A stretch of DNA of 46,275 nucleotides from an uncultured Marinicella sp. (GTDB lineage: Bacteria; Pseudomonadota; Gammaproteobacteria; Xanthomonadales; Marinicellaceae): NCBI GenBank assembly GCA_947502595.1, contig CANNAM010000016.1, positions 1-46,275 on the forward strand, read 5' to 3'. The notes under the pieces are model-generated. The model made no database searches. It saw only the letters and a list, made by a program, of their open reading frames with translations, and was not told the origin of the DNA. Below, one piece after another: positions 6,817-28,904 of this stretch. A program made the translations under genes and the position numbers. Every line of letters begins with the position of its first letter. The first letter of the stretch is position 1.

Positions 6817-9800
6817 ATGGCAAGCAACTCAATCAATCTATATTTCAGTCACTCCGTCGAACAATTGGCCCAAGTGTTGGCTGATCAAGTCATGTTGCAG
6901 CAAGCCAGTGGTTCTATATTTGTTGCGCCAAAGGTATTGGTTCCTAATGCCAATATGCAACGCTATTTGCAATTAACCATGGCTAAAATTAATGGTGTCT
7001 GTGCCCATGTGGATTTTCCTTTTTTGGAAACTGGACTGTTTCAAGCGGTCAATGAATTGCTTGATAAACAGTTTACTCACCTAAGTGGGACAATGGTGGC
7101 ATGGTCCGTGTGGCGCTTGTTACATGATGAAAAGCTGTTGGAAAACCCAGTTTATGCTTCCATCAAAACCTACTTAGGCGGAATCGAATCAGCACAATTG
7201 CTGGCCACCAAGCGTTGGCAGCTCAGTCAAAAGTTGGCCAAGTTAATGCTTGATTATGAAGCCCAGCGGCCTGAAATGGTCCACCAGTGGTTACAAGGTA
7301 AGCAAGTGTTCCACTCCAGTTCAGATACACGTTTGAAACAGTCTGAACAGCTTCAAAAGGACTTGTATTTACGTATTTACAACGCCGAATTCAGTCAACG
7401 CAGCATCACTTTATTCCAGGCTGCATTGAAATTAGAACGCCAACAATACAACAGCACCCAACAAAGTATCCATATTTTCACCCCTTCTAGGTTATCGCAA
7501 TTGCACCGTAAACTGTTGTTGCAGTTGGGGCAGTTTATGAGTATTCACATATATTCGCTCAACGTGTGCTCCGAATATTGGGAGGATTTACAGACTGAGC
7601 AAGAGGTCAGGTGGCAACAGCGCTTGCTAAAATCATATAAGTCACACCCAGTGTCCACAGTGGATAACGATGGCTTGCCCACTGCTGATACAGTAACAGG
7701 AGAAGTGTTTGTTGAGTTGTCATCATTTGCAGATGAAAATGAACTGTTAAAAGCTTGGGGTAAACCGGGACGTGAAGCACTGAAGCTGTTCAGTGAAATT
7801 GAAGTGGATGCCATCCATCACTCAATTGCTTACCAGGATGATTGGCTGATACCGGATTTTTCTGCGGCCCATTCACTGTTGCATGTGCTGCAGTCTAATG
7901 TATTGAATCGCAGTGCCGCAGCAGCACAAATTCAAGCAAAGGATGCGTTGAGTAGTTTGCAGTTTGCTTGTGCTCCTTCCATCATCAGAGAAGTTGAGGC
8001 GGTGTATAACAGTATTTTGTGGAACCTCGAACAAAGTCCTGAATTGGCCCTGAATGAAATAGCGGTGTTGGTCACTGACATGAATCAATACCGTTTTGTA
8101 CTTGAGCAGGTGTTTGAAGAACTTAACCATCAACATCAGTTGCAGCTGTCTTATGCGATTGTCGACAGCTCAGCGGCCAAAGAAAGCCTATATGCCGCTG
8201 CTGTATTGGACTTGTTTACTGTATTGGATGAAGATTTTATTCGATCGTCGGTGTTTAAGTGGTTGGACAACCCTTGTGTGCAAGCGGCCAATCACTTTGA
8301 TGCCAATGATTGGCAAGACTGGTTGTCGGTGGTTGATCAACTCGGCATTTACTGCGGATTTTCTGCTCTGTATCCTGCCAGCCAAGACGATTACAATGTG
8401 GCTGTTGATCAACTGTTTACTTGGCAGCAGGGCTTGAGCCGATTACACCAATCATTGGCCACCGGGTCAGATAATGGCGCGGAGTTTGATGTCAGTGCCA
8501 TAGGGGCTGAGCGCATTGGTCAGCTGAGTGTGTTACTGGAAACCCTTTATCAGTATAAGTTGCGACTGAATCAGGTACAAACAGCCGCTCAGTGGGAGCA
8601 ACAACTGAATCAACTGTTCGACTTATTGATTGCAGTTCCGGCTGACAATCAGCAAGAACACAACATCCAAATGGCATTACAGCAATCATTGCTGAATTTG
8701 GCTGCAGCTGAACCTGATTTGCGCTTAAGTTTTGCTGACATCAAACAGTTCATCAGTCATGAGTTGCAACAATTACCGGCCAGTAAGGGCAGTTACCTGT
8801 CCGGTGGTGTGGTTTGTGCTGCCTTGCAGCCAATGCGACCCATACCTTTTAAATTGACCTATGTTTTGGGTCTGGATGAAAAAACCTTTCCTGGGCAAGT
8901 TCGCCATGAAACTCTGGATTTAACCCAACGATCTAGGCGCATAGGGGACATCAATACCGTTGAAAACAACAACTATTTATTGTTAGAAACGTTGATGTGT
9001 AGCCGTGAAAAGCTGTACCTTTCATACGTAGGAATGGATTTACTGCGAGACGAGATCATTCAGCCATCTCCCGCATTCAGTACGCTGTATCAATATGCAA
9101 CGTCTTTACTTGATTTGAATGCGCTTGACTTGGATTGCCTGCCCATCACTCAATTGCCATTGGATGCCAGTGAGTCTGCGCATTTTGATGGCAGCCAATT
9201 AGAATTGCAGGATTGGGGGGTTAATTATTCTTTTGCCGATTACTTGCTCAAGGTCAATCGGCAACAAGCAGATTGGCAGCCACGCAGTAATGACTTGAGT
9301 CCAGCTCAACTGAGTGCATGGCAGCGCTTACAAGCGGTGAAGTCCCAAGAGCAAGCAGATATTGACAAGGTGCTGAATTTAAAGCAAATGGTCGATACCA
9401 ACAGCAGTTCAGCCTCAGTGATACAGCTGGATGCCCAGCAATTGGCCGACTATTTAAGCAATCCACAGGCTGCGGTATTGCAGCAACTGGGGATTGAAAG
9501 CAAGCACCCAGAAGACCGTTCTTTGGTTGAGCATGAGCCAACACAGTTAACGCCTTTGCTTAAACATGCCATCTTCACAGACAGCATTAAACAATGGTTA
9601 GAGCAGCCACAGACAGCAAATTTGCCAACCATCATCAAGCAACAACACCAGCACCACTTAAGCCTGTCTCAAGCGCCCTTGGCATTGTTTGCTGATTTAG
9701 CTGAATTAGCCAAAGTAGCAGAGCCGCTGAATAAAGCGCTGGTTGATCAATTGGCTGATAAACAAGTTTTGGGGTCATTGAAAGTAGGCCAAGCCAGTAC

Positions 9801-10506
9801 CCAAGCAACGGCGGATTTGGCAGTTGATGGTGTTTTGCTGACTCTAGACAATGGCCAACAAGTCCAAATCAACGGACTGGCTGAACAGCTGTACCAACAA
9901 GCCGGTTATTTAAGTGATCAAGTGGTCATCAGCAGCAGTAAACAATCCGGTGAATGGAATAAAAAACTGATTAAGCCATTCATCAATTGGTGTTTGTGGC
10001 AATTGTCCAATCAGGTTAATGTGGCAGAAGTGTTCAATGTCCACCTGGTGTTTCCTGACAAGTACCAACACATCGAATTCAAACAATGGTATGCAGCCGG
10101 TGCAAGTTTTGCCACAAAACCTGGCATCGAAAGTTACCTGCAAAAACTGGTGCAGCAGTATTTGGCCCTGCCAGCATATTTTTTACCCAGTGATTTATTG
10201 AATGATTTAAAGGTGACAACAAAACCAGAGGTGCCACAAGCAGTGCCTTTTCTTGGAAAGGGCTCCAAAGCCAAGAGCAACCATTATTTGGCCTATGAAC
10301 ATACTGACCTGTGCAGTGAAGACGTTCAAGCAGTGCTTACTAAGTACATGAGCGGTATGCACTGGCCCAGTTACGAAGAAATATTTCAGTTGGTCCAGGT
10401 GCAGCCCAGTGACGACCCGCTAACAACTTATCGACAAAATTTAATGCCACTATTCGCCATGGTAAAAGGCCGGCTTGATGTTGTGGAGCAGGGAGGTCAG
10501 TCATGA
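6817..10506 (+). CDS. recC: Exodeoxyribonuclease V subunit gamma (RecC)
   Basis: This is the structural and Chi-recognition subunit of the RecBCD helicase-nuclease, which processes double-strand DNA ends for RecA-mediated repair. The 1229-aa protein is about 100 aa longer than E. coli RecC (1122). Recognisable segments are the N-terminal SVEQLAQVLA with PNANMQRYLQL and the helicase-like core segment LTYVLGLDEKTFPG (about residues 677-690). Next comes RRIGDINTVENNNYLLLE with LYLSYVG, which corresponds to the RecC region written RPGDRSRRDDDRYLFLE in E. coli. As expected for RecC, the helicase and nuclease catalytic residues are degenerate. Its TGA overlaps the recB start (ATGA at 10503-10506). 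The order is recC-recB-recD with no ptrA between recC and recB. Confidence 0.93.
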   Translation: MASNSINLYFSHSVEQLAQVLADQVMLQQASGSIFVAPKVLVPNANMQRYLQLTMAKINGVCAHVDFPFLETGLFQAVNELLDKQFTHLSGTMVAWSVWRLLHDEKLLENPVYASIKTYLGGIESAQLLATKRWQLSQKLAKLMLDYEAQRPEMVHQWLQGKQVFHSSSDTRLKQSEQLQKDLYLRIYNAEFSQRSITLFQAALKLERQQYNSTQQSIHIFTPSRLSQLHRKLLLQLGQFMSIHIYSLNVCSEYWEDLQTEQEVRWQQRLLKSYKSHPVSTVDNDGLPTADTVTGEVFVELSSFADENELLKAWGKPGREALKLFSEIEVDAIHHSIAYQDDWLIPDFSAAHSLLHVLQSNVLNRSAAAAQIQAKDALSSLQFACAPSIIREVEAVYNSILWNLEQSPELALNEIAVLVTDMNQYRFVLEQVFEELNHQHQLQLSYAIVDSSAAKESLYAAAVLDLFTVLDEDFIRSSVFKWLDNPCVQAANHFDANDWQDWLSVVDQLGIYCGFSALYPASQDDYNVAVDQLFTWQQGLSRLHQSLATGSDNGAEFDVSAIGAERIGQLSVLLETLYQYKLRLNQVQTAAQWEQQLNQLFDLLIAVPADNQQEHNIQMALQQSLLNLAAAEPDLRLSFADIKQFISHELQQLPASKGSYLSGGVVCAALQPMRPIPFKLTYVLGLDEKTFPGQVRHETLDLTQRSRRIGDINTVENNNYLLLETLMCSREKLYLSYVGMDLLRDEIIQPSPAFSTLYQYATSLLDLNALDLDCLPITQLPLDASESAHFDGSQLELQDWGVNYSFADYLLKVNRQQADWQPRSNDLSPAQLSAWQRLQAVKSQEQADIDKVLNLKQMVDTNSSSASVIQLDAQQLADYLSNPQAAVLQQLGIESKHPEDRSLVEHEPTQLTPLLKHAIFTDSIKQWLEQPQTANLPTIIKQQHQHHLSLSQAPLALFADLAELAKVAEPLNKALVDQLADKQVLGSLKVGQASTQATADLAVDGVLLTLDNGQQVQINGLAEQLYQQAGYLSDQVVISSSKQSGEWNKKLIKPFINWCLWQLSNQVNVAEVFNVHLVFPDKYQHIEFKQWYAAGASFATKPGIESYLQKLVQQYLALPAYFLPSDLLNDLKVTTKPEVPQAVPFLGKGSKAKSNHYLAYEHTDLCSEDVQAVLTKYMSGMHWPSYEEIFQLVQVQPSDDPLTTYRQNLMPLFAMVKGRLDVVEQGGQS

Positions 10507-13500
10507 GAACAATCCATTTTACTGACATTCAAGCAGCTGCTGAAGTCAGCTTGCACCAACATGCGGTGATAGAGGCTTCTGCTGGCACCGGTAAAACCTA
10601 TACTTTGATTGAATTGGTGATGCGCTTGCTGCTTGAAGAACGCATGCAAATAGAAAAATTGTTGTTGGTGACTTTCACCGAACAGGCCACCGGTGAGCTC
10701 AAAGCACGCATCCGTGAACGGTTACAAGATGAGCTGAGGCGAGCGACGGATGTTGCGTTGATTGCGCACTTAGAACATAACATTTTACAACTCAATCAAG
10801 CATCGGTTTTCACCATCCACGGCTTTTGTCATGGCGCATTAAGAGAGTTTGCTTTTGAGCAGGGTGCAGTGTTTGAAGCCGAAGTGATCAGTGATTACGA
10901 TGTGTGGAATTTGACGCTGCGTCAAATGAAACGCCAATGGCCTGCAAACCAGCAACTGTTGAAGCAGTTGCAGGCTTATACAGCGGATAAGAAAATAACA
11001 TCCATTGATGATTTGTTGCTGCAATTGGCAGCTCAGTTTAAACCTGAATTTGACACAATTTACCCCAACTCAACTGCACTGAATGTTCAAGATATTATTA
11101 TTGATATCAGAGGCTTATTGGGTTTGTCTTTGGCTGAGTATGAAGCGCAATTTGTCGCACTAAAGGGCTTGAAGAAAACTTCGCATAAAACCCTGTGGTT
11201 GGGTGTTATTGAACCCTTTATCACTGCCTTGCAAGCGGCAGTGGATGCCGAAGACAGTGACGCTCTTATGCAGTTGTTAGCGTCAACGTATACGAATAAA
11301 AAGGACCTTAATGAAGTGTTTTTTAAAGGCTGTCCAGCCATTTATAAAGTTGATCACAAAGACGCTTTCGCGGGCGTCAATTTGCAGTCGTCAGCCCAAT
11401 TGTTTGAGCTAATAACTGGGTTGAATGAGGTTTGGGAAAGCATTCAAAGCCACCAGCAGGGGCTGAAATATTCGGCCATCCCTGAGTTGTTAAATGAGTT
11501 GGTGCAACGCAGTCAGCACTATAAATTAGACCGTGGCTTGCTCAGTTATGACGACATGATTGTACGTCTGTGGCAACAATTGCGCCAAGAGGGAGGGCTG
11601 CCACAGGCTGATCAGTTGTTAAGTCGTGCATTAAGGGATAAATACCAAGTGGCCATCATCGATGAGTTTCAAGACACCGATATCAGGCAATGGCAAATAT
11701 TTGAGCAACTGTTCCTCAAAGCATCGGGCAGTCAATCAAATGGACCTGATCACCGCTTGTGGGTGATTGGCGACCCCAAACAAGCCATTTACGGTTTCAG
11801 AGGTGCAGATTTACATACCTATGAAGCGGCGAAAACCAGCATCATTGAAAGTTACCAAGGAAACGCCTACCGTCTGGGTACCAATTACCGCACTGTTTCA
11901 GGTTTGATAACCGAGTTGAATCGATTTTTTGCCGATGCGGAAAGTGGCTGGTTTCAGCCCGAAGCGGTGCATGTAAAAGCGCCAGATTCGACTCTAATCG
12001 AAATTAACAAACAGCCACAAATAGTTGATAACAAAGGTTTAAGTTATTTCAATTGTCTGTCTGTTGAACAAAGTGATGCCGATACAGTGAAACGTCAGTT
12101 GGCAGAAAAAATTGTGGCCACCATCAAGCATCAAATCATCAACCAAGTGGAAGTTAAGTTAAAAGGCGAGCAGCGCAAGCTCAATGCTGCTGACGTGTGT
12201 ATTTTGGTCAGGGGCAATAAAGACGCTGAATATATCGAGGCGGCTTTACAGCAACAGCATATTCCTTTCACCTTTCATAAAAAGAAAAACCTGTACCAAT
12301 CAATAGAAGCCATACATTTCCATGTTGTACTGACAGCACTGGCCCGGCCGAATGAGATTAAGCGTGTTAACAACGCTTTGTTGACTTTATTTTTTGGCTT
12401 ACAGCCCATGCAACTTGCAGATTTTGCAGCTGAGCAGCTGCCTGCTACAACCGAATTATGGCTCAGTACCAAAGAAGCGGTGCTGGCCAAAGATTGGGTT
12501 AAAGTGTTTGATTTGTTGCTGAATGAAAGTGGCGCCTTATTCAGGGCCAGAAACAACAGCCGACGCTTGGCAAATATCAAACAGTTAAAACAGCAACTGC
12601 TTAAAGCGGCCTTACAAAACAACCTGGGCGCGGATGCTTTGTTGAAATTCTTTCAACAAAAACGTCAACAAACATCCAATGATGAGGACTTACACCACAA
12701 AGACACCGAAAGAAATGCCGTTAAGATCATGACCATGCACATCAGTAAAGGCTTGGAATTCCCGGTGGTGTTTCTGTTTGGGGGCTTTGGTCAAGGTCCT
12801 GGTGATGCGTTTTTACAATTTTACGATGAACAGCGTCAGGGCATGGTATATGACTTGGTTAAACAACACCAGTTAGCGTATGAATCACAGCAACTTAAAG
12901 AGGCCCATCAGTTGTACTATGTGGCCATGACCCGTGCCATATTCATGCTGTTTTTGCCCTATGTAGACCAATCTGAAAACACCATCACCAGGCCAGGCTG
13001 GTATGTAAAAACAGTGATGCAGCGATTAAATGAAACAGGTATGCACCAACAAATACCAGCTGAAAGCAGTGACCAAGTGGTTCATATTGATTCATCACAA
13101 GGGCCAGTTGCAGCTGTAACTTACGATTTAAAACCACCACGGAACTTGTATTCAAGGCGTCGTAATTTAAACTCGTTTTCTTCTTTGAGTCAGCTTAAAA
13201 AGCAAAGCAGCTCCACAGCAATTGCTGCCGATTTCAGTCAAAGTTTGACTGCTGAATTGATCAGTACTGAGGATCGAATCAGGCCAGACAGCAGTGCCCT
13301 GTCAAGCCCACAAATTCCAGGAGGGGTTAAAACCGGACATGTGTTGCATGGTATATTTGAACATGTTGATTTCAAGCAAATCAGTGTGCATGAATCAGCT
13401 GCAGCTGTGTATCAGGATGCCGAGATCATGGCTGTAATTGATCAACAAATGCAGCAGTTTAAATTAGACAACAAAGCATTTGCTGATACAGTTAATAAAG

Positions 13501-14057
13501 GTGCGATGGAATTGAACGCTGAGAAAAAACAACCTTTGGATTACCGGCAGCAGTTTGCTGACTGGGCATGGCATACTTTGAACAAACCATTGGCTGCTCT
13601 GAATGGGCAGTGTTTGGCAGGTATTTCAGCAGCTGATCGTTGTCATGAACTGTCGTTTTTTTGGAACCACGGCACCACGCATTTAACTGGCTTCATTGAT
13701 TTGTTGTTCGCAGTTCCGGGTAACGACGGTGCCACTGATTACTATATTTTAGATTGGAAAAGTAACTACAGTGCCAATGGCTACAGTCCTGCCGTGTTGT
13801 CAGATGAGGTGATGACCCAACACCAATACCACTGGCAGTATCAGTTGTATGCTTTGGCGGTGCAAAGTTGGTTTGATGCGCTAAACTTAAAAAACGCCCG
13901 TTTAAAAGGCGCAATATATGTGTTTTCTAGGGGCATTAACTGCCATGAAGCTGTACAGAATGGCGTGTTCTATGATGATTTCAGTGACCACAGCTGGCAG
14001 TTGGCAGACATCAAAACAGAGTTGTTGCAGATTGACCAATTTGGAGTGAAGTCATGA
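10503..14057 (+). CDS. recB: Exodeoxyribonuclease V subunit beta (RecB)
   Basis: RecB is the 3'-5' SF1A helicase and the sole nuclease of RecBCD. The 1184-aa length matches E. coli (1180). The Walker A motif EASAGTGKT lies at 24-32 and motif II IIDEFQDTD at about 384-392. GDPKQAIYGFRGADLHTYE and a KIMTMHISKGLEFPVVF-type motif V follow. The C-terminal nuclease domain is intact: His949 in GHVLHG, Asp1066 in TGFIDLLF, and Asp1084 and Lys1086 in LDWKSN. These correspond to E. coli H956, D1067, D1080 and K1082. It overlaps recC upstream and recD downstream by ATGA, which points to translational coupling of the three subunits. Confidence 0.96.
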   Translation: MRTIHFTDIQAAAEVSLHQHAVIEASAGTGKTYTLIELVMRLLLEERMQIEKLLLVTFTEQATGELKARIRERLQDELRRATDVALIAHLEHNILQLNQASVFTIHGFCHGALREFAFEQGAVFEAEVISDYDVWNLTLRQMKRQWPANQQLLKQLQAYTADKKITSIDDLLLQLAAQFKPEFDTIYPNSTALNVQDIIIDIRGLLGLSLAEYEAQFVALKGLKKTSHKTLWLGVIEPFITALQAAVDAEDSDALMQLLASTYTNKKDLNEVFFKGCPAIYKVDHKDAFAGVNLQSSAQLFELITGLNEVWESIQSHQQGLKYSAIPELLNELVQRSQHYKLDRGLLSYDDMIVRLWQQLRQEGGLPQADQLLSRALRDKYQVAIIDEFQDTDIRQWQIFEQLFLKASGSQSNGPDHRLWVIGDPKQAIYGFRGADLHTYEAAKTSIIESYQGNAYRLGTNYRTVSGLITELNRFFADAESGWFQPEAVHVKAPDSTLIEINKQPQIVDNKGLSYFNCLSVEQSDADTVKRQLAEKIVATIKHQIINQVEVKLKGEQRKLNAADVCILVRGNKDAEYIEAALQQQHIPFTFHKKKNLYQSIEAIHFHVVLTALARPNEIKRVNNALLTLFFGLQPMQLADFAAEQLPATTELWLSTKEAVLAKDWVKVFDLLLNESGALFRARNNSRRLANIKQLKQQLLKAALQNNLGADALLKFFQQKRQQTSNDEDLHHKDTERNAVKIMTMHISKGLEFPVVFLFGGFGQGPGDAFLQFYDEQRQGMVYDLVKQHQLAYESQQLKEAHQLYYVAMTRAIFMLFLPYVDQSENTITRPGWYVKTVMQRLNETGMHQQIPAESSDQVVHIDSSQGPVAAVTYDLKPPRNLYSRRRNLNSFSSLSQLKKQSSSTAIAADFSQSLTAELISTEDRIRPDSSALSSPQIPGGVKTGHVLHGIFEHVDFKQISVHESAAAVYQDAEIMAVIDQQMQQFKLDNKAFADTVNKGAMELNAEKKQPLDYRQQFADWAWHTLNKPLAALNGQCLAGISAADRCHELSFFWNHGTTHLTGFIDLLFAVPGNDGATDYYILDWKSNYSANGYSPAVLSDEVMTQHQYHWQYQLYALAVQSWFDALNLKNARLKGAIYVFSRGINCHEAVQNGVFYDDFSDHSWQLADIKTELLQIDQFGVKS

Positions 14058-16030
14058 AGTTTCAGGTCACAGCACAGCATTTGGCCCATGTATTTGATGG
14101 TTTGAACTTAAACCATGAACGGGTGTTGAGTCACTTGAGTTTAGACTTGGGTCATGTGCAATTGCTGCGTGATTGTTACCAAGCATGGGAAACTGCCGAT
14201 GAACAATTTTGGCTGGTGTTACTGGCTTTAGTTGATGCGGTGAACCAAGGGTCTTTGTGTTTGGATTTAAAACAGCCTTCGGTACAGCAAAAGTTACAAA
14301 GGTTAGGTGTCGAGCAAGTTTCAGAGTTGATGCGATCGATTGATTGGTCTGAGCTGCATTTGCAGCAAACAGCCATCCTACACTGTGAAAATGACTGTTT
14401 GTATTTTGCCAAATACCGGCAGTTAGAACAGCAGTTGCAAGGCGCTTTAGAACGCTTGTTGAGAGACTACGCGGGGCCTGAATTCACCGCACAGCAGGTG
14501 GCAGCAGCGGCTCGCCAAGTCACCGATGAACTGAGTTTTGAGCACATTGAAGCCCGACAGGTGCTGGCCATTGTCATCAGTTTGTTACAGCCTTTTGGCA
14601 TCATATCTGGCGGCCCAGGCACAGGAAAAACCACCATCATGAGCTCAGTGTTGCGTGCCTTGATGTTATTAGGTTATCGACCGGAAGATGTGGTGTTGGC
14701 AGCGCCCACTGGGCGAGCGGCCAACCGCATGACTGAATCATTGCATGAAGTTTTGAGTCAGCACATCAAGGTGGTTGCCAATACCGATCAAGGTTTGATG
14801 GACCTTGAGGCCAAAACCATCCATCGGTTGTTGGGTGCGCGAGCTGGTTGGCGTGGTTTTCAATACGGTGCACACAATTTGGTGAATTGTAAATTGTTGG
14901 TGGTGGATGAGGTGTCAATGGTTGATGCGGCCTTGATGCGCCAGTTGCTGCAAGCTGTACCATTGGATTGTCGGGTGATTCTGTTGGGTGATCAGTTTCA
15001 GTTACCTTCGGTGGACTCTGGCGCAGTGCTGGCTGATTTAATGCCGCCGGTAGGCACCACAGACCAGTACAGTGAGTCGATGTGTCAAAACTTGGCCTTG
15101 GCACTGGATGGTTTTGCCTGTAAGTCGACTTTGATGGCAGAACTGACGCCGGTGAACACCGCACACCTGTTGACCGACCATGTGGCTGTTTTAACTGTGT
15201 CTAAACGCTGTCAACCTGACATTGCAGCGCTTAGTGAGCTCGTTCGGCAAGGACGCGCTGAGCAAATGTTTGAGTCAGACTTGTTACAAATTGCTGCAGA
15301 GGATTTCGTTGAGCAAACGGTTGAAGGCGTCTATTTTATGGCTGCAGATTCAGACTTTAAAACTTGGCAACGCAACTATTTAAACTGGATTAAAAGCCAT
15401 TATTTTGCCCAATCAACTGATTTCAAAGCCTTAATAAAGCAGCTGCATGGGTTCGATGAAACCCAATTGACCCAATACCAAACACCACTAACACAAATTT
15501 TTAAGTTGATTAACAGCAACCGCATTTTGACCTTGGTTAATGAATCAACGGTAGGCAGTGTGCAAATCAATGAACATATCACCGCTCTAATGAAACAGCA
15601 GTTGGGCGTTTCAGGTATGCAAAACAGGTACCATGGTTCAGTCATCATGCTGGGTCAAAACAATACAACTTTAGGTTTGTTCAATGGTGATGTGGCGATT
15701 CTGTTGGCATCCAATAACGGTCAATTGCGTGCAGTACTGCCACACCAAGGCGGCTTTATATCACACTCCATCCATGTGTTGCCGCGCTTCACTTCAGCCT
15801 ATGCCATCACTGTGCACAAAAGCCAAGGCTCTGAATTCCAACATGTGTTGATGCCTTTGCCAGAAGATGAAAATCACCGCTTATTAACCCGTGAAATCAT
15901 CTATACCGGTATGACACGGGCCAAACAATCTGTCGGTATCTATGCCGCTCCAGAGGCTTTAAAAATGGCGGTTAAACGACAAACTAGCAGACACAGTGGT
16001 TTGCGCTTTTGGTACAATCAAGCACCTTAA
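14054..16030 (+). CDS. recD: Exodeoxyribonuclease V subunit alpha (RecD)
   Basis: RecD is the 5'-3' SF1B helicase of RecBCD, which drives the fast strand and switches at Chi. The 658-aa protein is slightly longer than E. coli RecD (608). The Walker A motif GGPGTGKTT lies at about 186-194, followed by AAPTGRAANRM, the Walker B-type VVDEVSMVD, LLGDQFQLPSVDSGAVLAD and motif V/VI with AITVHKSQGSEF and TGMTRAKQSVGIY. An N-terminal RecB-binding region (1-130) precedes the motor. The ATG at 14054 overlaps the recB stop. The VOC gene starts 22 nt downstream, so it may belong to the same transcript. Confidence 0.95.
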   Translation: MKFQVTAQHLAHVFDGLNLNHERVLSHLSLDLGHVQLLRDCYQAWETADEQFWLVLLALVDAVNQGSLCLDLKQPSVQQKLQRLGVEQVSELMRSIDWSELHLQQTAILHCENDCLYFAKYRQLEQQLQGALERLLRDYAGPEFTAQQVAAAARQVTDELSFEHIEARQVLAIVISLLQPFGIISGGPGTGKTTIMSSVLRALMLLGYRPEDVVLAAPTGRAANRMTESLHEVLSQHIKVVANTDQGLMDLEAKTIHRLLGARAGWRGFQYGAHNLVNCKLLVVDEVSMVDAALMRQLLQAVPLDCRVILLGDQFQLPSVDSGAVLADLMPPVGTTDQYSESMCQNLALALDGFACKSTLMAELTPVNTAHLLTDHVAVLTVSKRCQPDIAALSELVRQGRAEQMFESDLLQIAAEDFVEQTVEGVYFMAADSDFKTWQRNYLNWIKSHYFAQSTDFKALIKQLHGFDETQLTQYQTPLTQIFKLINSNRILTLVNESTVGSVQINEHITALMKQQLGVSGMQNRYHGSVIMLGQNNTTLGLFNGDVAILLASNNGQLRAVLPHQGGFISHSIHVLPRFTSAYAITVHKSQGSEFQHVLMPLPEDENHRLLTREIIYTGMTRAKQSVGIYAAPEALKMAVKRQTSRHSGLRFWYNQAP

Positions 16031-25268: not shown

Positions 25269-26048
25269 TCAGCCGCCTGCTGCAGGAGGGAGGAAGCCCA
25301 GCACATCCCGGTCATTAAGCAGGTCGTTCCATTGGGCAAAGTTGTCATTCAGTATGGGTTTGATGGTGGCAGTAGCAGCTGTGCAGTTGTGGGTTGCGCA
25401 TAAGTCTAAATAAACCGCTTCAATGCTGGTGGTGTTATTTGGAATTTTATACTGCAGTGGTTGTTGGCTGAAGGTTGATTGCAGTTGGCCGTAGAACTCA
25501 ATCGTAATTTGCCCACTTGCTTGTTCAGAACCTGGTGTCTGGTCACTGCTAAAATCAGCGCGACCACCTGATTTAGCCAACAGCCGTGTTTCAGTAATGA
25601 GGATGTTGTGACTCAAGGCTTTGCACATGTCGTAGATGGTCAGCGCGGCTACAGAGGCACCGGTCAAGGCTTCCATTTCAACCCCAGTTTTACCAGAGGT
25701 TTTACATTCGCAATTAATAATAAGGTCTTGATTATTATCTACATTTATCACTATCTTGCAGTTGTCCAAAGCCAATGGATGGCAAAATGGAATCAGTTCA
25801 TGGGTTTGCTTCGCTGCCATCACCCCAGCAATGATGGCGGTCTGAAACACCGGGCCTTTTTTACTGTTTATTTCGAAACCTTCACTTGCATGCGCTTGAT
25901 GAAGTGCGGCTTTTACAGCAGCCGGTAACAGCACCTTGGTTTGTGCAGTTGCGGTGCGACTGGTGATTGGTTTGTCACTGACATCAACCATGCTTGGGTT
26001 GTTGTGTTGGTCAATGTGGCTCAAGGTTTTATCGGTATCTGGTTTCAT
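25269..26048 (-). CDS. moaC: MoaC-MoaD fusion (cyclic pyranopterin monophosphate synthase plus molybdopterin synthase sulfur carrier)
   Basis: One uninterrupted 259-aa ORF carries two molybdopterin proteins. Residues about 8-166 are MoaC, which converts the MoaA product into cyclic pyranopterin monophosphate. They show MVDVS (20-24), AAKQTHELIPFCHPL, TGKTGVEMEALT-type sequence and the active-site YDMCKA with Asp140 and Lys143. Residues about 180-259 are a ubiquitin-like MoaD domain (ITIEFYGQL through DRDVLGFLPPAAGG) that ends exactly in the Gly-Gly needed for thiocarboxylation. The linker (about 166-179) is Ser/Gln/Gly-rich. No ATG, GTG or TTG codon lies in the linker, so a separately initiated MoaD is unlikely. 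It sits 9 nt after moaA and abuts moaE. The sequence shows an intact fusion, with no split or frameshift. Confidence 0.93.
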   Translation of the reverse strand: MKPDTDKTLSHIDQHNNPSMVDVSDKPITSRTATAQTKVLLPAAVKAALHQAHASEGFEINSKKGPVFQTAIIAGVMAAKQTHELIPFCHPLALDNCKIVINVDNNQDLIINCECKTSGKTGVEMEALTGASVAALTIYDMCKALSHNILITETRLLAKSGGRADFSSDQTPGSEQASGQITIEFYGQLQSTFSQQPLQYKIPNNTTSIEAVYLDLCATHNCTAATATIKPILNDNFAQWNDLLNDRDVLGFLPPAAGG

Positions 26049-26057
26049 GGTGTTTCT

Positions 26058-27086
26058 CTAGCCGCCAATCACAAACATTTCGACCTTAGGTAAAGTGTTT
26101 TGTTTGGCGCTGGTGCGTTGTGCAGAATATTGGTCTTGGCGGTGCTGCCAAATGGTGCTGATGGCAGTCAACAATTCATCAGGTTGGTCAATCAGTGTTT
26201 TGATGCTGCGACCTTGGTTGGCGAATAAGCAGGTATAAATTTCCCCTTGGGTACTGAGTCTGGCACGGTTGCAGTCTTGACAAAACGGCTCGCTGATAGA
26301 AGAGATCAGACCAAACTCACCCAGCCCGTCATCAAAAACATAACGACTGGCTACTTCTCCAATGTGGTTGGCAGGTTTAGGGCTGAATGGCCAACGTGCT
26401 GCGATCATCTGCAGCACTTGTTTGGACTGATAGACCTGTTCAGCTTGCCACCCATTGAGGTTGCCCACATCCATAAACTCAATGAATCTGACCACCACGC
26501 CAGTGCCACGGAAGTGCTCAAGCATGGGTATGATTTGGTCTTCGTTGACTCCTTTTTGCACCACACAATTGACTTTGACTTGTTTGATTTCAGTTGCTAA
26601 GCACTTTTCAATGCTGTTCAGAATGTTATTTAGCGGGTACTGACTGCCAGTAATTTGGGCGAATTTATCTGCCTCCATGGCATCCAAACTGATGGTGATG
26701 CGGTCCAGTCCAGCGCTGACTAAATCTGCCAACACAGGATTTAATAAGCCGGCGTTGGTGGTCAAAGCCACTTCTTCTATGCCTTTGATGCTTTTTATCT
26801 TTCGTATCAGATTTGATAGGTTTTTACGCAACAAGGGTTCACCACCTGTTAGTCTGATTTTATTGACACCCAATTGCGCAAAAGCTTTTACCACTGCTGT
26901 GATTTGAGTGAAGCTGAGTTGTTGTTCACTTTGACTGTGTTGGCGCATCACCTCAACATGTTCTGCAGGCAAGCAGTAGTTGCAGCGAAATTGGCAACGG
27001 TCTGTCAGAGAAATGCGCAAGTCTTTCAGCGGTCGCTGTAATTGGTCTAGGACAGGTGGGTTGGCCGCATCAGCCATGGTAGCCAT
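26058..27086 (-). CDS. moaA: GTP 3',8-cyclase (MoaA)
   Basis: This radical SAM enzyme converts GTP to 3',8-cyclo-7,8-dihydro-GTP, the first step of molybdopterin synthesis. It is 342 aa from the ATG at 27086. The SAM-cluster motif CxxxCxxC is at Cys31, Cys35 and Cys38 (DRCQFRCNYC), and TGGEPLLRK follows. The second, substrate-binding cluster is in FCQDCNRARLS and the Cys of EIYTC. The C-terminus ends in Gly-Gly, as in E. coli MoaA. The gene starts inside the end of kdkA. TTG 27089, ATG 27086 and ATG 27077 are all possible, with no decisive Shine-Dalgarno. Translation is probably coupled to kdkA. Confidence 0.95.
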   Translation of the reverse strand: MATMADAANPPVLDQLQRPLKDLRISLTDRCQFRCNYCLPAEHVEVMRQHSQSEQQLSFTQITAVVKAFAQLGVNKIRLTGGEPLLRKNLSNLIRKIKSIKGIEEVALTTNAGLLNPVLADLVSAGLDRITISLDAMEADKFAQITGSQYPLNNILNSIEKCLATEIKQVKVNCVVQKGVNEDQIIPMLEHFRGTGVVVRFIEFMDVGNLNGWQAEQVYQSKQVLQMIAARWPFSPKPANHIGEVASRYVFDDGLGEFGLISSISEPFCQDCNRARLSTQGEIYTCLFANQGRSIKTLIDQPDELLTAISTIWQHRQDQYSAQRTSAKQNTLPKVEMFVIGG

Positions 27087-27774
27087 CAAGCAAGGACTGC
27101 CATTGTTGGCTTAATTGTTCCGTGTGCTTATTGTCACTGACTTTTTCAACCGATCTTTTCAATCGATTCATATTGTCTTGTTGCCATTGTGTTTTAGGGG
27201 TTCGAACCTCGCCTTTATCAAAGTCAATTATAAAAGCTTGGTCATCATTCAATAAAATATTGTGTGCATTGAGGTCAGAGTGGTAGATGCCGTTGTGGTG
27301 GTATTGGGCAATGGTGGTGCCAATTTTATGCCATATACTTAAGCTCATAGGATCGTCGCTGCTGATGGCTTGAGCCAGTGTCATTTTGTGTTGAATGTGT
27401 TCCATAATCAGGTCATTGCGGTAAAACAAACCTTTTTTAACAATCAATGCAGCCACTGGTTTGGGACTGGGTAAGTCCAACTGTTGCAGTTTATTGAGTA
27501 ACTGGTACTCGCGGTAGGCACGGGTATTTTCTAGGCCGGTCCAAAAGTAACGGTCACGATTGAGCTTGGCATACAAGCCTCCACGGAAGTAGTGCCGTAT
27601 CACCCATTTACCCCATTCGGCTTTGATGACCCAGGTAGAGCCACGGCCAGAATTGGCTCCCAGTAAGCGACCTTGATTCATCCAGTAGTCTTGCTCAAAC
27701 CATTGTTGATTGACTTCATCTTTCAATGAATCTGAGGTGATGATTGAAAGATTATTTTTTTTGATTGTGTGCAA
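27070..27774 (-). CDS. kdkA: 3-deoxy-D-manno-octulosonic acid kinase
   Basis: KdkA phosphorylates the KDO residue of the LPS inner core at the inner face of the membrane, using ATP. Recognisable blocks are GRGSTWVIKAEWGKWVIRHY, FRGGLYAKLNRDRYF, a YREYQLLNKL helix, PSPKPVAA, the kinase catalytic loop HSDLNAHNILL and IDFDKG, and the C-terminal NMNRLKRSVEKV. The frame is open upstream to 27888. Those extra residues do not look like KdkA and overlap the divergent gene, so I place the start at the TTG at 27774 (about 234 aa, the family's usual size). That start has no good Shine-Dalgarno and is uncertain. The gene overlaps moaA at its 3' end. Confidence 0.85.
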   Translation of the reverse strand: MHTIKKNNLSIITSDSLKDEVNQQWFEQDYWMNQGRLLGANSGRGSTWVIKAEWGKWVIRHYFRGGLYAKLNRDRYFWTGLENTRAYREYQLLNKLQQLDLPSPKPVAALIVKKGLFYRNDLIMEHIQHKMTLAQAISSDDPMSLSIWHKIGTTIAQYHHNGIYHSDLNAHNILLNDDQAFIIDFDKGEVRTPKTQWQQDNMNRLKRSVEKVSDNKHTEQLSQQWQSLLDGYHG

Positions 27775-27887
27775 GTTGTTGGCTTGGTCGATGATAGAAT
27801 GGCTTATTTTAAATGATTTAGCTGATGACAACAAACCCAAGTTCAAAACCACAGCCAAATCCGCAGAAAACTCAATACAATCAGTCA

Positions 27888-28904
27888 ATGAAAATTTGTA
27901 TCTTTCGCTTGTCTGCCATAGGTGATGCGACGCATGTTGTGCCGGTGGTAAAAACTTTACAAAAACATTTCCCCAACGCCCAAATTACGTGGGTGATAGG
28001 TCAGCTTGAGCATAAACTGCTGCAGGGCTTGCCGGGAGTTGAATTTATTGTGTTCAATAAATCCAGTGGTTGGCAAGGTGTAAAAGCCTTGCGCAAACAA
28101 TTACAAGGAAGGTGTTTTGATGTGTTGTTACAGATGCAGTTGTCGCTGCGGGCCAATTTGGTGTCCAGGCTGATTAAAGCCAAACGACGCATTGGTTTTG
28201 ATCGACACCGCTCCAAAGAGCTGCATGGCTTGGCAGTCAACGAGCGCATACCTTATTTAAAAGACTGTCATGTGCTTGATGGCTTCATGCAGTTTGCAAC
28301 TTACCTGGGTTGTACAGATAAATTAATGGATTGGCACATTCCTGTCAGTGATGAAGATCAGCAATTTGCCACGCAATACATTGATGGCAATAAAAAAACC
28401 TTGATCATCAGTCCTTGCTCAAGCCATGAGTTGCGAAATTGGTCAGTTACTAAATATGCAGCATTGATAGATGCAGTGGTAGAAACACTGCAGATGCAGG
28501 TTATTTTAACCGGCGGACCAGCAGCCAAAGAACAGGCTTTTGTGGCTGCAATAGCCACCACAAGTCATCATCCAGTGCTTAATTTGGCAGGTAAGGACAC
28601 CTTGAAACAACTGCTGTGTTTGCTCGAACAAGCAGATTTGGTGGTTTCTCCAGATTCGGGGCCTTTGCATATGGCCGGTAGTGTGGGCACACCAGTGATT
28701 GGTTTATTGGCTGCCAGTAATTACCAAAGATCAGGTTCCTACCAATTTCCAGAGTTGACCGTTGACTTGTACCCAGAGGCTTGTCAGAAATTCCTCAATA
28801 AATCGGTGGATGAAGTTAAATGGGGCACCAAAACAGAGTTTGAAGGCGCTATGGATTTGATTACTGTCGAAGCGGTGATGCACAAAGTTAAGACTTTATT
28901 TTAA
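27888..28904 (+). CDS. Glycosyltransferase family 9 protein (LPS heptosyltransferase-like)
   Basis: This GT9 enzyme of about 338 aa probably transfers a heptose or related sugar from ADP-heptose to the LPS inner core at the cytoplasmic face. The N-terminus ICIFRLSAIGDATHVVPVV is the classic GT9 start. ISPCSSHELRNWSVTKYAAL and DSGPLHMAGSVGTPVIGL form the nucleotide-sugar pocket. The frame stays open to an ATG at 27825, but GT9 proteins begin at MKICIFRLS, so 27888 is chosen. It is divergent from kdkA, which acts on the same LPS region. That fits an inner-core role, but I cannot tell WaaC from WaaF by eye. Confidence 0.88.
   Translation: MKICIFRLSAIGDATHVVPVVKTLQKHFPNAQITWVIGQLEHKLLQGLPGVEFIVFNKSSGWQGVKALRKQLQGRCFDVLLQMQLSLRANLVSRLIKAKRRIGFDRHRSKELHGLAVNERIPYLKDCHVLDGFMQFATYLGCTDKLMDWHIPVSDEDQQFATQYIDGNKKTLIISPCSSHELRNWSVTKYAALIDAVVETLQMQVILTGGPAAKEQAFVAAIATTSHHPVLNLAGKDTLKQLLCLLEQADLVVSPDSGPLHMAGSVGTPVIGLLAASNYQRSGSYQFPELTVDLYPEACQKFLNKSVDEVKWGTKTEFEGAMDLITVEAVMHKVKTLF

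Follow-up and report, generated by a model that had tools for sequence, protein, structure and literature searches.

A probable in-frame fusion of MoaC and MoaD in a Marinicella genome, and its apparent convergence with a fusion general in another family of the same class

Does a reading frame that joins two proteins of molybdenum cofactor synthesis, MoaC and the sulfur carrier MoaD, encode one working chain, or is it an error of assembly, a precursor that is cut apart or a relic? The window (the whole 46,275-nucleotide stretch of Marinicella DNA that we analysed) contains on its minus strand, at 25269..26048, a single 259-residue open reading frame (ORF) with an ATG start and its stop codon at 25269-25271. 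The original prediction described this ORF as a complete MoaC domain (with Asp140 and Lys143 present) followed by a MoaD domain ending in Gly-Gly, placed between moaA and moaE, with a linker free of stop codons and of ATG, GTG and TTG; the profile matches, the chain end, a codon listing and the positions of both neighbours on the same strand agree with it throughout (Table 1). The ATG of moaE follows directly on the stop codon of the fused ORF. The true start of moaA may lie slightly downstream of the listed TTG; a Kdo/WaaP-type lipopolysaccharide kinase ORF (27070-27888, minus strand) overlaps the listed start of moaA, and moaA may therefore be translated in coupling with it. Elsewhere in the window (6817-16030, plus strand), three overlapping ORFs with Exonuc_V_gamma, UvrD-helicase and AAA/UvrD_C_2 domains stand in the order expected of recC-recB-recD.

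Table 1. Coordinates of the fused ORF, its parts and its neighbours in the window
Feature	Position	Strand	Evidence or remark
MoaC domain (residues 1-166)	25551..26048	-	Pfam PF01967; Foldseek to 4pyd/1ekr chains
Asp140	25631-25629	-	Codon position, MoaC domain
Lys143	25622-25620	-	Codon position, MoaC domain
Linker (about residues 167-178)	25515..25550	-	Codon listing; AlphaFold2 pLDDT <50 at 172-177
MoaD domain (residues 179-259)	25272..25514	-	TIGR01682; Foldseek to MoaD chains
C-terminal Gly-Gly of MoaD domain	25277-25272	-	ORF end PPAAGG-stop
moaE, 142 aa	24840..25268	-	Pfam PF02391, E 7.2e-33; PDB MoaE matches
moaA, 343 aa, TTG start as listed mechanically	26058..27089	-	TIGR02666, E 1.2e-105

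The MoaC part matches Pfam PF01967 along the entire profile (residues 20-162, profile positions 1-136/136, E 5.7e-48, 162.8 bits against a cut-off of 27) and exceeds the cut-off of TIGR00581 (162.9 bits; cut-off 141.5). Its Asp140 and Lys143 lie within a YDMCK motif that aligns with the solved E. coli MoaC, in whose numbering we take the catalytic pair to be Asp128 and Lys131. The MoaD part is spanned from end to end by the NCBIfam moaD model TIGR01682 (residues 181-259, profile positions 1-80/80, E 1.2e-6), at 29.2 bits and so short of the curated cut-off of 66.15; PF02597 gives 21.1 bits, below its cut-off of 22.5, and the Pfam profile search did not bring the MoaD/ThiS family to E 0.001. 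One of the fusions from the family f182, introduced below, likewise falls under the TIGR01682 cut-off, at 63.3 bits. The final PPAAGG leaves Gly-Gly free at the C-terminus, and the gene context is that of a MoaD, with moaE as neighbour and MoeB elsewhere in the genome.

An AlphaFold2 model of the fused protein has a mean pLDDT of 90.9, with residues 172-177 below 50, and a pTM of 0.67 (the alignment used for modelling misplaces the N-terminal parts of separate MoaD rows; the model is confident all the same). Foldseek matched the first domain to MoaC structures (4pyd and 1ekr chains and others, TMt 0.88-0.93) and the second to MoaD-type chains (1vjk, 1nvi_D, the human 5mpo_B, 1fm0_D and 1jwb_D; E 3.9e-4 to 2.8e-3), among them the MoaD of molybdopterin synthases (1nvi, 1fm0, 5mpo) and of the MoeB-MoaD complex (1jwb); by these matches the second domain has the beta-grasp fold of MoaD. 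The predicted protein is two confident domains with a flexible linker, and its pTM agrees with two rigid domains whose relative placement is not fixed. Both domains occurring in one frame at these E-values, together with structural matches to MoaC and to MoaD, is not chance, and a single-chain MoaC-MoaD with both domains apparently intact is supported.

The same frame could have come from an assembly or sequencing artefact, in which one base missing from the linker joined two separate genes. The fusion is seen in one assembly only, and a missing base could send moaC into a frame with early stops, moaD then starting at GTG 25546 or GTG 25516, which share one other frame of the linker. No ribosome-binding site precedes these GTGs, an absence that does not count against alternative starts, most of the relatives' moaD starts lacking one too. 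Against the artefact stands the scarcity of start codons. Past the TTG at 25580, itself in the MoaC part, the frame continues into the MoaD part with no ATG, GTG, TTG or stop codon. Between 25627 and 25440 on the minus strand none of the three frames has an ATG; the nearest (25628, in frame) lies within MoaC, whereas moaD starts with ATG in 13/13 of the relatives listed (ATG being the codon that the script looked for there). Among the relatives, the moaC stop and the moaD start adjoin or overlap, and in L002, L003 and L005 moaD lies in the frame of moaC, after an in-frame stop. In a seven-row MAFFT alignment of the junction, the moaD ATG of the congener L004 stands opposite GGG in the window, with no gap between the two onward into moaD; the alignment needs a one-base gap just upstream of the L004 ATG, as the differing frames of the two genomes require. 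Separate genes would need both a stop and a start, which a single substitution cannot give, and the other long genes of the window show no obvious breaks in the ORF list. Because no ATG lies near the junction in any frame, we regard an artefact as quite improbable. Sequencing error had been named at the outset as what would refute the fusion; it is unlikely, though a missing base combined with a GTG start could still give two genes.

If the junction is genuine, the relatives show how widely it is shared; 45/60 of them match the fused protein. Their moaC and moaD are separate in 28 of the 28 loci parsed, including all 26 parsed from the organism's own family (26/26), 12 of them congeners; in L030, the 29th relative parsed (L002-L030), the MoaC frame likewise ends by itself. 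Like the window, the 12 congeners (L002-L004, L006-L011, L013, L016 and L021) have matches to MoaA, MoaC, MoaD and MoaE inside a stretch of a few kb, with 60-72% identity in MoaC; unlike it, they have moaC closed by a stop codon and moaD as an ORF of its own that begins with ATG. A fusion common to the genus is accordingly rejected, and the present one looks private to its own lineage. No match to the fused protein was found in 5 of the 17 congeners searched (G001, G002, G006, G008 and G011), and the genus may have seen a loss or a gain of molybdenum cofactor synthesis. Farther afield, the MoaC frame ends by itself in all of the best 80 loci (80/80) on wider genome contigs (7 of them recognized with a looser motif), and in one of 66 plasmid records a place reached a coverage of 80% or more, the annotation giving moaC and moaD as separate genes there.

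The original prediction did not regard MoaC-MoaD as a common form, a view that does not hold in one other family of the same class, f182 (probably the Halomonadaceae), which spans 24 genera. Matches were found in 144 of the 151 f182 genomes searched, the other 7 having none, and all 144 (144/144) carry a MoaC-MoaD fusion. A single match without a stop codon extends over both domains to the final residue in 133 of them; the other 11 have single frames with longer linkers, ending in Gly-Gly in 10, with the eleventh closed after a longer stretch of sequence. The first met, in class genomes G667 and G759, were found through their long frames. The f182 fusions share with the window the domain order, a C-terminal Gly-Gly (in those read) and a flexible-looking linker, and differ in that the linkers are 11 to 76 residues longer in the 59 measured (108-173 residues from the Gly-Gly motif of MoaC to the chain end, vs 97 in the window). 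In L185 and L220 (genome G779) the linker has a run of near-identical five-residue repeats of the PSAAQ type, with a similar run in L188, which suggests that f182 linker length varies through repeat expansion. We considered whether R in place of K in the conserved GGKS motif, at the end of MoaC, marks a fusion, and rejected this, since the separate MoaC of L132, L137 and L139 carry GGR.

Our survey of class, order and phylum took in the matches listed and the stretches fetched for their long open frames (the criterion of one match through both domains missed two f182 genomes). A phylum sample of 398 genomes gave 328 with a match; among the matches listed, at least 8 are stop-free through both domains, all of them f182. 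Twenty class stretches were parsed and 2 are fused, both f182; nine further ones (L196-L204) yielded 7 with separate genes and 2 unparsed. From 50 order and 10 phylum stretches, 58/60 were parsed (2 unparsed) and none is fused to MoaD, 56 ending soon after MoaC and 2 having long basic tails. In L227 and L231, MoaC continues at its C-terminus into about 70 residues of basic low-complexity sequence, with no MoaD. Outside the survey lie G299 (its match at a contig end), most long-frame phylum rows, the weaker order matches, L115, L119 and the own-family genome G018. In the checked part of order, class and phylum, no MoaC-MoaD fusion was found beyond f182 and the window.

The two sets of fusions do not share an origin by the phylogeny of MoaC. 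The window branches with 12 congeners (support 98) in a tree of 62 rows. A tree of 94 rows puts it with 18 separate MoaC (99) and away from the 36 fused f182 rows, of which two are repeats; this larger tree needs 4 changes of state, 2 of them forced by well-supported branches. Both are quick trees, with SH-aLRT support only. An approximately unbiased (AU) test on 51 rows, thinned by hand from the 94 with long-branch and duplicate rows left out, rejected a single clade for the 20 fusions together (p 9e-40), and with it a single ancestral fusion for all; a clade made up of the 19 f182 fusions was not rejected (p 0.51). On the question raised with the prediction, whether such fusions form a clade, those of f182 are compatible with one and that of the window stands outside it. 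These MoaC sequences place the origin of the MoaC-MoaD fusion in at least two lineages of one class independently. The fused rows of the f182 genus g370 (L195 and L206-L210) stand near Shewanella-type separate MoaC in both quick trees, possibly reflecting a further fusion origin or a transfer.

A MoaD part that is a decaying remnant, in a genome that is losing the pathway, would also be compatible with the weak MoaD profile scores and with the 5/17 congeners without a match. Against its two nearest congeners the window has 46-51% identity in MoaD and 67-72% in MoaC, and its MoaC end branch measures 0.39, vs 0.15 and 0.16 for its sisters. The window has more changes of its own than the sister has in 17/20 comparisons for MoaC (usually by a few), 13/20 for MoaA, 11/20 for MoaD and 5/20 for MoaE, a weak test in which the 20 comparisons per protein (L002 or L004 as sister, with 10 outgroups each) are not independent; the MoaD excess is clear against three outgroups (for example, 13 against 4) and absent against the others. 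By this weak test the window copy seems to have changed somewhat faster in part of the operon, with MoaD not outstanding as decaying.

The organism's own assembly (64 contigs, 99.78% complete) holds no second, separate moaD or thiS-like locus that searches with the fused protein and PF02597 could find (the PF02597 match to the fused locus is itself below cut-off), a check that the original prediction had called for. MoaB lies on contig C4, and contig C1 carries MoeA next to a MoeB that is extended at its N-terminus. This MoeB gene (L125:2190-3242, plus strand) directly follows moeA, and its extension is an apparent rhodanese, as read from the sequence and from a match to the longer MoeB model NF006444; proteins of the MoeBR type carry the rhodanese at the C-terminus, the reverse of the order here. 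Three molybdoenzyme families were searched for. The sole PF00384 match is a 777-residue protein beside an apparent complex I subunit, read by eye as NuoG; PF02738 found none in the assembly; and PF00174 found MsrP, with MsrQ adjoining (L205:671-2235, minus strand, contig C19). The NuoG-like protein aside, MsrP-MsrQ is the only likely molybdoenzyme from these searches, and that it comes from PF00174 alone is a further point for decay. The pathway nevertheless appears complete with a client enzyme, probably MsrP. With the partner genes present, the PPAAGG end intact, the fold confident and the unique MoaD changes in excess in only 11/20 comparisons, decay is very improbable.

We consider it likely, at roughly three chances in four, that the ORF is genuine, two neighbouring genes of the operon having fused in frame within this lineage, and that it works as one chain. 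A stop and a start would have been lost and the frames made to coincide, so that ribosomes make a single chain. Its MoaC part would form cyclic pyranopterin monophosphate as usual, judging from the family match and the conserved residues, with the MoaD part hanging on a flexible linker of about 12-18 residues. From the known chemistry of MoaD, the free Gly-Gly would be adenylated by the genome's rhodanese-MoeB and then take up sulfur, and the charged, tethered MoaD would enter MoaE without proteolysis. The gain would most likely be co-translation at a fixed ratio, or the change near-neutral; channelling is not required. The fused architecture is evidently tolerated, because it is present in 144/144 matched f182 genomes. 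The weak MoaD scores (TIGR01682 and PF02597 below cut-off), a MoaD more diverged than MoaC, the long MoaC end branch and the single assembly count against this reading.

The fused chain could instead be made and then cut in its linker, or an internal start could yield MoaD as well, in either case leaving free MoaD as the working form. The linker is predicted to be flexible, the in-frame ATG 25628 and TTG 25580 near the end of the MoaC domain could start a longer MoaD, and fusions of MoaD with MoaE need cleavage (MoaX, PMC4326299). The reason for cutting MoaX, a blocked Gly-Gly, does not hold here: with MoaD at the end of the chain, its Gly-Gly is already free and no cut is required. Neither ATG 25628 nor TTG 25580 has a clear ribosome-binding site before it by eye, which says little, most of the 13 relatives' moaD starts being the same. 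We think this route unlikely. The fused ORF is in any case not a MoaX-type cleaved fusion, its MoaE being a separate ORF and its MoaD C-terminal.

The original prediction suggested a possible channelling of substrate to MoaE. If the single chain works as such, it might have been selected because cyclic pyranopterin monophosphate, the product of MoaC, would pass straight to the MoaD-MoaE synthase, by channelling or in a metabolon. The two steps are consecutive, and at least two independent origins, with presence throughout the matched f182 genomes, suggest benefit or stable tolerance. The pTM of 0.67 and the disordered linker, however, give no fixed domain placement; the range of 108-173 residues after the MoaC motif in f182, vs 97 here, argues against precise geometry; and genes adjoining in an operon fuse readily. 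Selection for channelling is therefore doubtful. It is improbable, if conceivable, that the convergent fusions build a particle, in which a MoaC hexamer carries six tethered carriers and MoaE dimers, taking two carriers each, cross-link the hexamers; the unstable pyranopterin intermediate would then stay local. With at least two independent origins and generality in one family, the fusion allows one to test directly whether MoaC and molybdopterin synthase gain from being close together, and whether MoaD has to be free to move between MoeB and MoaE.

No description of a MoaC-MoaD fusion was found in the literature searched (most subscription journals being outside its scope), the passages of PMC11237513, PMC1779556 and PMC6147048 (the last treating fusions of molybdoenzymes) make no mention of one, and none of the NCBIfam models matched by the MoaC-MoaD proteins of the window and f182 is a MoaC/MoaD fusion model. 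As far as these searches go, the chain in the window is a convergent example of an undescribed architecture that all matched f182 genomes share. Related joinings are known. In passages of PMC11237513, archaeal MoaC is fused with itself, with MoaE and with MoaB, and MoaD with MoaE and MoeB; a passage of PMC1779556 has MoaD fused with MoaE and perhaps with aldehyde ferredoxin oxidoreductase. One close comparison is MoaX, as described in PMC4326299: like the protein in the window it is a single-chain fusion of the cofactor pathway that includes MoaD, but its Gly-Gly is internal and must be freed by cleavage for activity (a point made for MoaD-MoaE also in a passage of PMC11237513), whereas in the window Gly-Gly is the chain end. 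The MoaC/MoaB, MoaC/MobA and MoaC/MOSC proteins of NCBIfam models and the archaeal MoaC-MoaE, MoaC-MoaB and MoaC-MoaC fusions in the passages of PMC11237513 join MoaC to a pathway domain, as here; the window differs from them in that the partner is the sulfur carrier, a natural case of the carrier of molybdopterin synthase permanently tied to the enzyme of the preceding step with its Gly-Gly still free.
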